A stretch of DNA of 64,000 bases, taken from the NCBI RefSeq assembly GCF_007725405.1, contig NZ_CP042163.1, positions 2,914,001 to 2,978,000 of the forward strand, read 5' to 3'. The notes under the pieces were generated by a model. The model was not told the DNA's origin. It made no database searches and saw only the letters and a program-made list of their open reading frames with translations. A program made the position numbers and the translations under genes. Of this stretch, positions 37,322 through 43,197 are shown in pieces. The number at the start of each line of letters is the position of its first letter. Within the stretch, counting starts at the first letter, position 1. This DNA is from Shouchella miscanthi. GTDB lineage: Bacteria; Bacillota; Bacilli; Bacillales; Bacillaceae_D.

Positions 37322-38701
37322 CTAACCCTTACTTACGATTTCTTTCGCTTTTTGTATGGCGGTTTCAACTTGAGCGAAGCCTGTACCACCTGCACTATTT
37401 CGACGAGCCACTACAGTCTTTGGTTGTAAGACATCGTAAATGTCTTCATCAAATAAGGCACTTGCCTCTGTAAAATCATCCATTGATAGATCAAGTAAGT
37501 ACACGTTTTTTTGAATTGCTTTTAAAACAAGTTTCCCCACTACTTCATGAGCTTCACGAAACGGCATTCCTTTTGTCGCTAAATAATCTGCTAATTCTGT
37601 TGCATTGGAGAAATCTTGACTTACTGCCGCTTCCATTTGCTCTGTTTTCACCGACATACTCGCAATCATACCTGAAAAAATGCGAAGTGATCCTTTTACA
37701 GTTACAACGGTGTCAAACAATCCCTCTTTATCTTCTTGCATGTCTTTATTGTATGCGAGAGGAAGCCCTTTTAACGTCGTTAATAGGGAGAATAAATTAC
37801 CATACACACGACCGGTTTTTCCGCGAATGAGCTCTGCCATATCAGGGTTTTTCTTTTGCGGCATAATACTAGAGCCTGTCGCAAACGCATCATCCAGTTC
37901 AATAAACTGGCATTCTTGAGAGGACCAAAAAATCATTTCCTCACACAGGCGAGATAAGTGCATCATGAGAGTAGATGAAGCTGATAAAAATTCCACAATA
38001 AAATCACGGTCACTAACCGCATCTAAACTATTCTCATAAATACCGTCAAACCCTAGTAGCTCTGCTGTCATATGACGATCGATCGGAAACGTAGTTCCTG
38101 CAAGTGCACCTGCACCTAGAGGCGACACATTCACTCGTTTTAAACTGTCATGAAAACGACTGTAGTCACGCTCAAGCATCCAAAAGTATGCAAGTAGATG
38201 ATGTGCAAATGACACTGGTTGCGCACGCTGTAAGTGTGTATAACCAGGAATGAGGGTTTCTACATGCTCTTGAGCCTGATGAATAAGTGATTCTTGCATA
38301 GCCCGAATCGCTTCCATAATTGTCTTTGTCTCTTTATACAAGTACAGGTGCATATCTGTAGCCACTTGATCGTTACGGCTACGTCCTGTGTGTAGCTTGC
38401 CTCCCACAGGACCAATCTCATCAATTAGTTGCTTTTCAATATTTAAATGAATGTCTTCCTGAGCAACTTCATATGCTAGCGTTCCCTCTTCGGCTTTTTT
38501 CTTCAACGTTTGTAAGCCAGCTACAATTGTATTCTTTTCTTCTTCCGTCACGATTTCACAAGCGGCAAGCATCGTCACATGAGCGATGCTACCTTGAATG
38601 TCTTCAAATACTAATTGTTTATCAAACCCAATGGAGGCGCCAAATTCATCGACCCATTCTTCGGCTGATTTGGTGAATCTTCCGCCCCACAGTTTACTCA
38701 C
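37322..38701 (-). CDS. argH: Argininosuccinate lyase ArgH
   Basis: Final step of arginine synthesis, splitting argininosuccinate into arginine and fumarate. 459 residues from a GTG at 38701 ([11 protein letters not shown]), which overlaps the argG stop as GTGA and is preceded by AGAGGAGGTAAC inside argG; the longer frame runs into argG and is discarded. Signature [12 protein letters not shown] and [13 protein letters not shown] are present. Translationally coupled to argG. Confidence 0.96.
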
Positions 38702-39909
38702 GATGTTACCTCCTCTTTTGCTTTTGTGACCATGCTGTGTACCTTCGTTGGCAATCCCCATAAGGAAATAAAGCCAACTGCTGCATTGTGGTCAAACTCA
38801 TCATCCGGTGTATACGTTGCTAATTTTTCATTGTAAAGAGAATACGGTGATTTTCTTCCTTCTACAATTGCATGCCCTTTAAAGAGCTTGACGCGTACAA
38901 TACCTGTTACGTGCTGCTGTGACTCTTTTAAGAAAGCTTGAAGAGCTGGCTGAAGGCTGGAGAACCATAAACCTTCATAAATTAATTCAGTTAATTTCTT
39001 TTCAATAACAGGTTTAAAGTGTGCCAATTCCTTCGGCAACGTTAAGTCTTCAAGCTCTTTATGGGCCTTAATTAGCGTCATTGCACCTGGACACTCATAT
39101 ACTTCACGCGATTTAATACCAACAAGACGGTTCTCTACATGGTCAATGCGTCCAACACCATGCTTACCAGCAAGGTTATTTAAAGAAAGAATCAGTTCAT
39201 CTAATGGCATCGCTTGACCATTAATAGCCACTGGTACCCCTTTCTCAAAATGAATCTCAATTGTATCGGCTGTATCAGGTGTTTTCTCTAATGGCGCTGT
39301 TAATTCATAGGCGCCTTCTGGTGGTGTCGCCCAAGGATCTTCTAGAATACCGCACTCATTGCTTCTGCCCCATAAATTTTGATCAACAGAATATGGGTTA
39401 TCTAAATCAATTGGAATTGGAATATTGTTTGCTTTTGCATATTCAATTTCCTCATCACGGGACCATGCCCAGTCACGAACAGGTGCAAGGACCTTTAGAT
39501 CGGGATTAAGTGCTTGAATGGATACTTCAAAACGGACTTGATCATTCCCTTTTCCAGTGCATCCATGGGCTACTGCGGAAGCACCTGTTTGTTCTGCAAC
39601 CTCTACAAGCTTTTTCGAGATTAATGGGCGAGAAAGAGCAGATACTAGCGGATATTTTTGTTCATAGAGTGCATGAGATTGAAGAGCTGGAAGAACAAAT
39701 TCCTCAGCAAACTCTTTTTTCGCATCAATGGTATACGATTGAATGGCTCCAACAGTTAATGCTTTTTGCTTCACAAATTCTAAGTCTTTTCCTTCGCCTA
39801 CATCAAGGCCAACGGCAATCACATCATACCCTTTATCGGTTAACCATTTCACTGCTACGGATGTGTCTAATCCACCTGAATATGCAAGTACTACTTTTTC
39901 TTTCGCCAC
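38698..39909 (-). CDS. argG: Argininosuccinate synthase ArgG
   Basis: ATP-dependent joining of citrulline and aspartate. The 403-residue protein has the PP-loop [17 protein letters not shown] at the N terminus and the substrate motif [15 protein letters not shown]. It forms an operon with argH and lies downstream of a sequence matching the ARG box, so arginine repression by AhrC/ArgR is likely. Confidence 0.97.
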
Positions 39910-39974: not shown

Positions 39975-40004
39975 AAAAATGAACTGGGGGTATGCTCCCC
40001 AGTT
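39975..40004 (-). terminator. Terminator upstream of argG
   Basis: Minus strand AACTGGGG-AGCATAC-CCCCAGTT followed by CATTTTTC. Either it ends the EcsC-like gene transcript or acts as an attenuator in a longer argG leader. Confidence 0.7.
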
Positions 40005-40144: not shown

Positions 40145-40921
40145 TTAGTTCTCTGAAAAGCGATGAAGCCAACGCTTTCTGTAGAAGCATTGTGCATCCA
40201 ATGTTAACGATTGCATAGATTTATAGGAGACTGAAGCTTGATATGTACCAAGAATGATACGTTTCAACGGAACACGTTTAGGTCCAACTTGTTTATACAG
40301 TGACATGCGTATAATCTGTTTTAATAGCTGCTTTATAACGGCCTCTGATATCATGTCTTCTTTCCCAAGATACATAGGCTCATTTTGGTCACACACAATA
40401 CCATCATTTGTTAACGAGCGCCACTCTTCATACTTTAAATGCTTTGGTAAAAAACTGTATAGTAACAGCCGCAGTGACAAAATGGTTTCTGCAGTCCCAC
40501 CTGTTTGAGTGAATTGATAAAAATGACCGACTTTATTAAGTGCTTTCTTTGATAAATACAGACTAAGAGGAATGTGTGTCAGTAAAGCCATGTTTGAGTG
40601 GATACTCATCCCCCCCTGTAAGAGAGCAAGCAATCGAGTTCGCGCTAATTCTTTTTGTAAGAGGTGTTCCTTCTCATTTCGAACAGCAATGGAATCATCT
40701 GGTTCTAACTGTATCATTGACTGAAACGTTGACTGTTGTAAAAAGTCAGATTGAATCCACTGATACAATTGAATGGCAATTGGATCCGTGTACTGTGTCC
40801 ACTTTTCGTCAATTGGTTGCCTCCCATCATCCCAGCCCTTTTTCTTTGATTGAATGAACAACTGCTTTTCATACTGATCAATTTCTGCTAACCATTGCTC
40901 AACACTAGACACGCTTGTCAT
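40145..40921 (-). CDS. EcsC-like protein
   Basis: 258-residue protein whose central part (about residues 98-165; GGMSIHSNMALLTHIPLSLY, then KKALNKVGHFYQF) resembles the EcsC family, with the short hydrophobic segment and a bulky-residue helix typical of it. EcsC-family function is unknown; some members are near transporters. The ATG overlaps the upstream gene's stop as ATGA, so the two are translated together. This pair has no counterpart between argG and ackA in B. subtilis, which instead has moaB there. Confidence 0.65.
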   Translation of the reverse strand: MTSVSSVEQWLAEIDQYEKQLFIQSKKKGWDDGRQPIDEKWTQYTDPIAIQLYQWIQSDFLQQSTFQSMIQLEPDDSIAVRNEKEHLLQKELARTRLLALLQGGMSIHSNMALLTHIPLSLYLSKKALNKVGHFYQFTQTGGTAETILSLRLLLYSFLPKHLKYEEWRSLTNDGIVCDQNEPMYLGKEDMISEAVIKQLLKQIIRMSLYKQVGPKRVPLKRIILGTYQASVSYKSMQSLTLDAQCFYRKRWLHRFSEN

Positions 40922-41823
40922 TCTCCTTCCTCATCAAAGTGGGTAAACATTTTCCTTTTAAATAAAGGAATATATGGAAATCCTGCTTCGTTAACTTGCT
41001 CTAGTGCTCGTAATTCTGTATTCATCCGTTTCAAATAAAAATACAAAATAGCTTCCGCCGTTTTTGGCTTTACTGATGTCTCTTCTGTTTGATCATACTG
41101 ACCAAGAATGGTGTGTTTTAGTTGTACAATCTCTTTATTAAACCCATCAATCTTTTGCTGTTGTGCCGCTTGATTGATCATTTCGACACTTAATACAACT
41201 TGACCAATCAGCTCACCTACAGCTGTATATTCAGGGGTAAGTGGATCATTTAATGCTTGAATTTTTCCAATGTCACCTAATAAGCAAGCCGCTAAAACAA
41301 TGTCTCGATTAACCGTCTTATACAAAGGAAGGAGCTGCAGTGCTGCCGTCATAAGTTCAACAATTTGCTCTAGTAGCCCTGCATAATAAGCATGATGATA
41401 GGTTTTACCAGCAGGATAGGTAGTCAATTTCTCACGAATCCCACGATTACTGTATATTTCTTTCACAAGCTGTTGTAGAATAGGCGACTCAATCTCATCC
41501 ATCATCATCCGTAACTCATGCCAGAGATCTTCTCGGGATAAACCCGGCTTCGAGATTAGTTCAGTTCGATTTATTTGATCATCCTCTGTCGCCAATCGGA
41601 TTTTCTTTATTGTTAACATTTGCTTCGAACGAAAGGTTTCAATGGCTCCTTCAACCTTCACAACCGATTTTGGGACAAACTTCTGCTGTTGGTCATCTGT
41701 TATATCCCACAGCCGAGCCGAGAGGAGGTTATGTTGCTGTTGCAACGTAAAATTTGCGTAAAGCGACCCGTTTGCTGCCTGCTTAATTTCACGCTCTCGA
41801 ATCATATAAAAACCAGATTCCAT
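40918..41823 (-). CDS. YhaM-like OB-fold/HD protein with degenerate active site
   Basis: About 301 residues resembling the 3'-5' exoribonuclease YhaM: an N-terminal OB-fold (FTLQQQHNLLSARLWDITDD, then VVKVEGAIETFRSKQMLTI) and an HD-type helical domain. Of the usual metal ligands only the first HH (143-144) and a KH (236-237) remain; the HD pair is Gly183-Asp184 in LLGDIGK, the other His positions are Gln (LLEQ, IGQV) and the SHHG motif is GQYD. Catalysis is therefore unlikely. Start at 41823 is 7 nt from GGAGGT; ATG codons at 41826 and 41838 are alternatives. Translationally coupled to the EcsC-like gene. Confidence 0.75.
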   Translation of the reverse strand: MESGFYMIREREIKQAANGSLYANFTLQQQHNLLSARLWDITDDQQQKFVPKSVVKVEGAIETFRSKQMLTIKKIRLATEDDQINRTELISKPGLSREDLWHELRMMMDEIESPILQQLVKEIYSNRGIREKLTTYPAGKTYHHAYYAGLLEQIVELMTAALQLLPLYKTVNRDIVLAACLLGDIGKIQALNDPLTPEYTAVGELIGQVVLSVEMINQAAQQQKIDGFNKEIVQLKHTILGQYDQTEETSVKPKTAEAILYFYLKRMNTELRALEQVNEAGFPYIPLFKRKMFTHFDEEGE

Positions 41824-41948
41824 CATCAACACCTCCATCCATTATCTTAGCTGAGAAGCGTTTAAAAGGCAAAAGAAGTTCTTACCCTCATTCTAGCTTT
41901 CAACCTGTATCTATACTATTTTTTTCTCATTCCAAGCATTCTCAAGAA

Positions 41949-42012: not shown

Positions 42013-43197
42013 TTACGTTAAACGAACTGTATCACGGGCAATCATAACTTCTTCATTCGTAGGAACAATCAAGACTTTCACTTTGGAATCCGCAGTTTGT
42101 AAGAAGGTTTCTTTTCCGCGTACATTATTTTTAGATAAATCAACTTCGATTCCCATAAATTCTAAGCCTTTTAGAACGCGCTCTCGAACAACGGTGCTAT
42201 TTTCGCCAATACCGGCTGTGAAAATAAGAACATCAATGCCGCCCATACGTGTTGCATATGCACCAACATAATCCTGAATTCTTGAAGTAAAGACATCAAG
42301 AGCTACCTTTGCACGCTCGTTGCCTTTTGCTTCTTCACTTTCGATATCGCGTAAATCACTTGAAAACCCTGTAAGACCAAGCAGTCCACTTTGCTTATTT
42401 AACGTGGAAATTACTTCTGTCACCGTTTGATTGGTCTTATCCATGATGAACGGGATAAGAGCTGGATCAATATCACCAGAACGTGTGCCCATTGTCACAC
42501 CTGCAAGAGGTGTAAAACCCATAGACGTGTCAACTGACTTACCACCATCAATTGCTGCTATACTTGCTCCATTTCCTAAATGACAAGAAACCATTTTTAA
42601 GCTTTCAATTGGCTCAGCAAGCATTTCAGCAGCTCGTTCAGACACATATTTGTGAGAAGTGCCGTGGAATCCATATTTACGAATACCGTGCTCTGTATAG
42701 TATTCATATGGAAGGCTGTACAAGTATGCGTGTTCTGGCATCGTTTGATGGAAAGCCGTATCAAATACTGCGACGGCCGGTACATTTGGAAGCACTTCTT
42801 TAAATGCTTTTATTCCTGTAATATTTGCCGGGTTGTGAAGTGGAGCCAATTCGGACACTTCTACAATGCCTGCTAATACATCGTCCGTTATGAGAACCGA
42901 ATCGTTAAATTTCTCGCCGCCATGAACAACACGGTGACCAATTCCCTCAATATCATCTAGAGAGGAAATAATATTTAAGCTTGTTAGTTTATCAAGTAAC
43001 ATCTTCACAGCTTCGGAATGATCCGCAATATCTGCTGTAGTTTCGTGCTTTTCTCCGTTTTTCTCAATTGCAAAAACAGAGTCTCTCAATCCAATGCGCT
43101 CAACAAGGCCTTTTGTAATAACTATCTCTTCAGGCATTGAGAGTAATTGAAATTTAAGGGATGAGCTCCCTGCGTTAATTGCCATAATCGTAGCCAT
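42013..43197 (-). CDS. ackA: Acetate kinase AckA
   Basis: Reversible acetyl-phosphate + ADP to acetate + ATP in overflow metabolism. The 394-residue protein has [13 protein letters not shown] at the N terminus, [13 protein letters not shown], the catalytic region [16 protein letters not shown] and GNGASIAA. Its promoter region carries a cre-like sequence in the position used for CcpA activation in B. subtilis. Confidence 0.97.

Follow-up and report, generated by a model that had tools for sequence, protein, structure and literature searches.

The ackA–argG interval of Shouchella miscanthi raises the question of what a YhaM-like protein does once most of its HD active site has gone, and whether it does so together with the EcsC-family protein encoded beside it. 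The window analysed, the whole stretch of 64,000 nucleotides, carries the YhaM-like gene (here yhaM2) and the EcsC-like gene (here ecsC2) where the original prediction had placed them, on the minus strand and with the ATGA overlap that it described (Table 1). The yhaM2 product has 306 residues counted from the first ATG, although 41823, the second of two tandem ATGs 3' of a GGAGG, is also a plausible start; the ecsC2 product has 258. A scan of the locus for promoters and terminators gave counts no different from those of shuffled sequence.

Table 1. Positions of the genes and signals discussed; positions without a prefix refer to the window.
Feature	Position	Strand	Remarks
yhaM2, YhaM-like OB-fold and HD-fold gene	40918..41838	-	decayed HD site; likely start 41826 or 41823
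ecsC2, EcsC-family (PF12787) gene	40145..40921	-	all-helical model, basic, without hydrophobic segment
ATGA stop/start overlap of yhaM2 and ecsC2	40918..40921	-	
Possible intrinsic terminator 3' of ecsC2	39982..40004	-	1 found against 1.1 in shuffles, not significant
ackA	42013..43197	-	conserved upstream neighbour
argG	38698..39909	-	conserved downstream neighbour
Canonical yhaM	G000:C1:1583080-1583907		
Canonical ecsC	G000:C1:1591868-1592548		198 bits EcsC
LonB/LonC-like AAA+ protease gene between yhaM2 and ecsC2	L095:8867-11377		
Small ORF between ecsC2 and argG	L082:9876-10238	opposite to ecsC2	
Small ORF between ecsC2 and argG	L076:9793-10140	opposite to ecsC2	
Small ORF between ecsC2 and argG	L081:9864-10181	opposite to ecsC2	
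Small ORF between ecsC2 and argG	L132:5777-6118	opposite to ecsC2	

The likeness of YhaM2 to YhaM is borne out. Residues 10-282 match the NCBIfam YhaM model NF010007 with 170.7 bits (E 4e-50), a score below the curated cut-off of 460 that places the protein outside the equivalog; L055, a YhaM2 with all ligands, reaches 255.7 bits and the canonical YhaM of the window's own genome 525.7 bits. The sequence also matches the solved YhaM structures 9h3f (E 2e-36) and 9o7t (E 1.6e-33). The AlphaFold2 model of YhaM2 (mean pLDDT 77, pTM 0.59) is weak at residues 142-153 and 198-205, where the pLDDT falls below 50, and its top match in a Foldseek search of the PDB is again 9h3f (E 2e-10). Model and match together give an OB fold followed by an HD-fold domain, while the Pfam HD and OB models stay below their cut-offs (15.6 of 22 and 12.9 of 27). 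YhaM2 thus shares with YhaM/CBF1, the Mn2+-dependent 3'-5' exoribonuclease, the OB fold, the linker and the HD-fold domain in the same motif order, and the homology is clear; it differs in its locus and in the replacement of six of the seven classical HD ligands. The single 4.25-Mb contig of this genome also encodes, at another place, a canonical YhaM with 27% identity to YhaM2. On the sequences, the window gene is therefore a second YhaM copy, a paralog, with the intact YhaM located elsewhere. A canonical YhaM occurs in each of the 50 genomes tested, and YhaM2, complete or in fragments, in 41 of these. In the window's genome canonical yhaM is found 8 kb from canonical ecsC, an arrangement that the yhaM2-ecsC2 pair recalls. 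One or two YhaM-like genes beyond YhaM and YhaM2 are present in G109, G168, G067 and G218 (family f28) and in G084 (family f45).

The active site of the window protein is altered as had been read from the DNA: the HD pair is Gly188-Asp189, glutamine stands at 158 and 213, and the SHHG motif reads GQYD at 246-249. The distal Asp-x-x-Asp, which the original prediction missed, is lost as well (Lys270..Asn273). Of the seven classical ligands (H-HD-H-HH-D, a list which we take to apply to YhaM2 by analogy with HD-GYP enzymes), only Asp189 is kept. A shift of the ligands to neighbouring positions does not explain this, as the flanking motifs are in register at each position and the only histidines within residues 140-284 are 148, 149 and 242. 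These three belong to the HH (148-149) and KH (241-242) pairs, which are indeed present but, although counted as surviving ligands, fall outside the classical seven. His148 is kept in 43 of 45 YhaM2 sequences, His149 and His242 in all 45, and Asp189 in 42. Since the three histidines lie outside the classical ligand set and are nevertheless kept in 43-45 of 45 sequences, they probably have another, structural role.

The loss of ligands is graded across the YhaM2 clade. Eleven positions were scored in 59 distinct sequences (45 YhaM2 and 14 canonical, after removal of duplicates, of broken copies and of one short fragment of a canonical protein). All eleven are kept in 14/14 canonical proteins and in five of the 45 YhaM2 (L051, L055, L058, L060 and L052; L051 is identical to Anaerobacillus alkalilacustris L092). 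By classical ligands, seven are kept in 5 YhaM2 sequences, six in 2, five in 3, four in 15, three in 7, two in 6 and one in 7, the window protein belonging to the last group. In the 31-sequence clade that contains the window protein, the SHH pair is absent from every member and the distal Asp residues are gone throughout, with one distal Asp excepted; the HD histidine was lost on the Shouchella branch and separately in Alkalihalophilus. The idea that relatives always carry the window's substitutions holds within the genus, where the set occurs in 10/10 distinct Shouchella sequences (Gln213 in 7/10), but not for the clade as a whole. In a tree built with the scored columns removed and canonical YhaM as the outgroup, YhaM2 forms a single clade (support 100/100), and the fully liganded members fall outside the window's 31-sequence clade. 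Depending on the scored position, the tree requires at least 0 to 6 changes (H1 3, H2 2, D2 3, H3 6, H5 3, H6 4, D7 4, D8 1). The deepest branches are weak (bootstrap 41 and 49%), and the tree program flagged L061 as a long branch joining the outgroup; the branching order at the base of YhaM2 is accordingly tentative. The fully liganded members share with the window protein the clade, the YhaM2 signature and the locus beside ackA with ecsC2 downstream, and unlike it they keep all 11 scored positions; judged by those positions, they are probably catalytic. The YhaM2 series, which at a single constant locus runs from a complete active site to an almost wholly lost one, amounts to a natural experiment on what YhaM does beyond cutting.

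These losses bear on the published picture of the family. PMC11347170 (section 22) describes a tree of 258 YhaM homologs in which the HD sites are invariant, and reports two YhaM paralogs for B. halodurans, among other species. At the ackA locus B. halodurans has a gene (L090) whose product retains the HD dyad and lacks the SHH pair, in agreement with both statements. Read from their sequences, the HD losses of Shouchella and Alkalihalophilus break the invariance reported in that 2024 paper. A literature search of titles and the beginnings of abstracts found no description of a YhaM pseudoenzyme. We tentatively propose, at somewhat less than even confidence, that YhaM2 constitutes an undescribed YhaM-derived pseudo-exoribonuclease family, RNA-end-binding or YhaM-regulating, with a conserved Gln/Lys/Asn pocket, graded stages of ligand loss and a pairing with an EcsC paralog. 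For annotation, a YhaM-like gene at the ackA locus of organisms that carry YhaM2 should not be assumed to encode a nuclease.

Despite the loss of ligands, yhaM2 appears to be under constraint. Between the window and a 95%-identical relative its dN/dS is 0.034 (ackA 0.039, canonical yhaM 0.011, argG 0.008, ecsC2 0.159), an estimate that comes from one informative pair, dS being saturated against more distant species; against the 99%-identical G002 the value is 0.274, on very few changes. The replacement residues are themselves conserved in the window's clade, with Gln for H5 in 31/31 sequences, Asn for D8 in 30/31 and Lys for D7 in 29/31, a conservation exceeding that of 87, 81 and 76% of columns, respectively. 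The conserved replacements and the low dN/dS against the 95%-identical relative argue that yhaM2 is not a dying gene. On the OB side, A21, N23, Y27, W44, D45, K61 and R81 are identical in 45/45 YhaM2; three of them, Y27, D45 and K61, are not the residues of most canonical proteins and form a YhaM2 signature. The OB half is less basic than that of canonical YhaM (pI 6.6 against 8.0).

The predicted loss of catalysis is well supported for the window protein, given that one of seven classical ligands is left and that the SHH pair is absent from all 31 members of its clade. According to PMC11347170, S. aureus YhaM D193A and H192A/D193A are described as inactive and H192A has residual activity; D193A still binds RNA, and at high concentration it partly degrades RNA. 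Loss of a single ligand is thus no proof of inactivity, because the S. aureus single mutants of H192 and D193 keep some activity in that account, and the non-catalytic case for YhaM2 rests on the sum of the ligand losses. A YhaM fold that lacks six of seven ligands should be able to bind without cutting, and the retained OB signature residues and purifying selection make a nucleic-acid binder plausible. We therefore favour, as the rather more probable reading, a constrained pseudo-exoribonuclease that binds RNA (or single-stranded DNA) ends or modulates the canonical YhaM. We propose that, in an ancestor of the alkaliphilic-type Bacillaceae, a YhaM paralog settled between ackA and an ecsC-type gene already resident there, and that it has become a pseudo-exoribonuclease in most lineages since. 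Its OB fold may still bind single-stranded RNA (or DNA) ends, and the re-shaped HD domain would hold or shield these ends, or dock another protein, without cutting. The simplest docking partner would be the canonical YhaM, a hexamer, which is present in every YhaM2 genome tested.

A narrower form of this proposal, in which YhaM2 co-assembles with the canonical YhaM as a regulatory subunit and tunes its trimming, ecsC2 being a mere passenger, is in our view unlikely, though worth weighing. A canonical YhaM accompanies YhaM2 in all 41 YhaM2 genomes among the 50 tested, and pseudoenzymes often pair with an active paralog. The two proteins of the window genome are only 27% identical, however. As reported in PMC11347170, wild-type S. 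aureus YhaM forms a hexamer, with Mn(II), both in solution and inside cells, but HD mutations weaken the hexamer, so a mixed YhaM/YhaM2 hexamer is not assured.

Whether the preferred pseudo-exoribonuclease acts with EcsC2, as originally suggested, turns on distribution and gene order. Within the genus, 12 of 13 genomes have a match at the level of yhaM2, and within the family 35 of 41 do (the fragments in G008 and G024 counted); in the order-level sample, 25 of 397 genomes match at E <= 1e-70, the next match, at 1.4e-47, lying across a wide gap. A pattern scan of named genomes yielded 32 yhaM2 loci, from Shouchella, Halalkalibacter, Alkalihalophilus, Halalkalibacterium, Alkalihalobacillus, Alkalihalobacterium, Anaerobacillus, Alteribacter and Salsuginibacillus and from four records titled Bacillus; the closest named species for the window YhaM2 is Shouchella oshimensis (95% identical). 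The genera that carry YhaM2 are mostly alkaliphiles. In 32/32 named loci the order is ytxK-ackA-yhaM2-ecsC2 on one strand, with argG and argH next in 31, and in the genome sample, whose loci overlap with the named set, ecsC2 lies downstream on the same strand at 45/45 yhaM2 places (G018, G024 and G028, with matches but no locus, excluded). At 41 of these 45 no other long gene was recognised between the two (in L049 the gap is ~210 nt), and a Lon-like gene or fragment intervenes in L048, L052 (the shorter piece), L053 and L054. Among the named loci, L095 and L096 have a LonB/LonC-like AAA+ protease gene there, its L095 product carrying PF13654, PF20436, PF20437 and Lon_C. In the 31 of 32 named loci read for spacing, counting those with an unbroken yhaM2 frame and no Lon-like gene, the nearest possible ecsC2 start either overlaps the end of yhaM2 or lies within ~60 nt of its stop; the ATGA is present at some loci and absent from others, and in L070, of the nearest named species, that start lies 5 nt past the stop.

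Co-occurrence holds in one direction: every YhaM2 place examined has an EcsC gene downstream, but EcsC2 is mostly found without YhaM2. An EcsC2 profile matches 323 of 397 order genomes at E <= 1e-14, including all 25 with yhaM2, although the lowest-scoring of these matches may represent other EcsC paralogs. In 20 hand-picked genomes with ecsC2 and without yhaM2, ecsC2 lies at most 350 nt after ackA in 17 and ~1.1 kb after it in L141 and L145, and in L142 the stretch holds no ackA; a yhaM2 match was sought in these 20 stretches and none was found. Loss is seen in G003, of the window's genus, which has ackA-ecsC2 with yhaM2 gone, and G140 and G243 (Anaerobacillus-type genus g34) have ecsC2 beside ackA with yhaM2 absent. 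The sister genus g2, also counted among the losses, lacks both genes, with no EcsC2-level match in 5/5 genomes and ackA directly before argG in the three stretches read. By this distribution ecsC2 is older at the ackA site than yhaM2. As EcsC2 mostly occurs without YhaM2, the simplest account is a later insertion of yhaM2 into the space between ackA and ecsC2, and since ecsC2 stands at the ackA site in 19 of the 20 genomes without YhaM2, the two probably did not arrive together. That the pair arose by segmental duplication of the stretch from canonical yhaM to canonical ecsC is an attractive idea, given their 8 kb spacing in this genome, but is not favoured.

The EcsC2 protein passes the Pfam EcsC model PF12787 narrowly (35.6 bits against a cut-off of 30.4). 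Its gene is a paralog separate from canonical ecsC, which lies near canonical yhaM; with regard to ecsAB linkage, its nearest neighbours are yhaM2, ackA and argG. A fold search gave no PDB match below E 0.2, and word searches of the literature on EcsC function returned mostly unrelated uses of the abbreviation and nothing usable. The predicted membrane association finds no support in the window EcsC2, where the highest Kyte-Doolittle mean over 19 residues is 1.13 and a hydrophobic segment is missing, whereas all 24 non-Shouchella relatives have one of the MGGxxLLxxDLP type (1.47-2.32). Of the six Shouchella proteins compared (window, L005, L006, L007, L009 and L012), five have lost the segment and L012 has a less hydrophobic form; five are basic (pI 8.4-9.7), as are 4/24 relatives (8.4-8.9). 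ecsC2 evolves fast in Shouchella (distance 4.27 to others against 1.39 among others), but this is no evidence for coupling to yhaM2, because ackA (L070-L075) tilts the same way (0.61 to others against 0.27 among others). A mirror-tree style test of distance correlation on 30 of the 32 named loci (L100, a broken draft, excluded beforehand; L094 dropped for want of argG/argH; the longest piece of L101 kept) gave no specific signal for YhaM2-EcsC2: the partial correlation of yhaM2 with ecsC2 (0.32) is lower than those of yhaM2 with ytxK (0.63) and of ecsC2 with ackA (0.81).

A YhaM2-EcsC2 complex binding RNA or ssDNA near the membrane is therefore doubtful. The position of ecsC2 downstream of yhaM2 at all places examined and the absence of both genes from g2 speak for it, but the tpx-ytxK-ackA-argG block is conserved anyway, and the frequent occurrence of EcsC2 without YhaM2, the unspecific correlation and the missing hydrophobic segment weigh on the other side. 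The adjacency, being part of a generally conserved gene order, does not bear out joint action; the case for a membrane EcsC partner is weak, and a role of EcsC2 with YhaM2, suggested by adjacency, is possible and forms a weaker part of our proposal.

Returning to the re-shaped HD domain of the pseudo-exoribonuclease, an altered chemistry, with one-metal or metal-free hydrolysis through Asp189, His149, His242, Gln247 and Lys270, would account for the near-universal retention of the first three residues and the conserved replacements, but the window protein keeps one of seven classical ligands and the fully liganded members suggest an ordinary ancestral chemistry, which makes it improbable. Neutral decay of a redundant yhaM duplicate, which could explain the repeated ligand losses, the split or frameshifted yhaM2 in drafts G008 and G024 and in L101, the lack in L100 of an unbroken frame matching a scored row, and the absence of yhaM2 from G003 and g2, is contradicted by the present data and highly improbable, as dN/dS is as low as for ackA (one pair), the replacement residues are fixed, the frame is open in 6/6 single-contig family genomes with a match, and the broken copies sit in drafts and may be sequencing errors.

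The locus had further been placed at a site where B. subtilis has moaB. A MoaB-type gene (PF00994, 110.9 bits) does adjoin ecsC2 in L136, of another family, but L082, L076 and L081 have a small ORF there, and a replacement of moaB was rejected, the relatives looked at carrying this different ORF. A Pfam search with the L082 ORF gave no match. The small ORF in the ecsC2-argG gap of the relatives encodes ~105-120 aa and contains ELASIINDLWIWFR.
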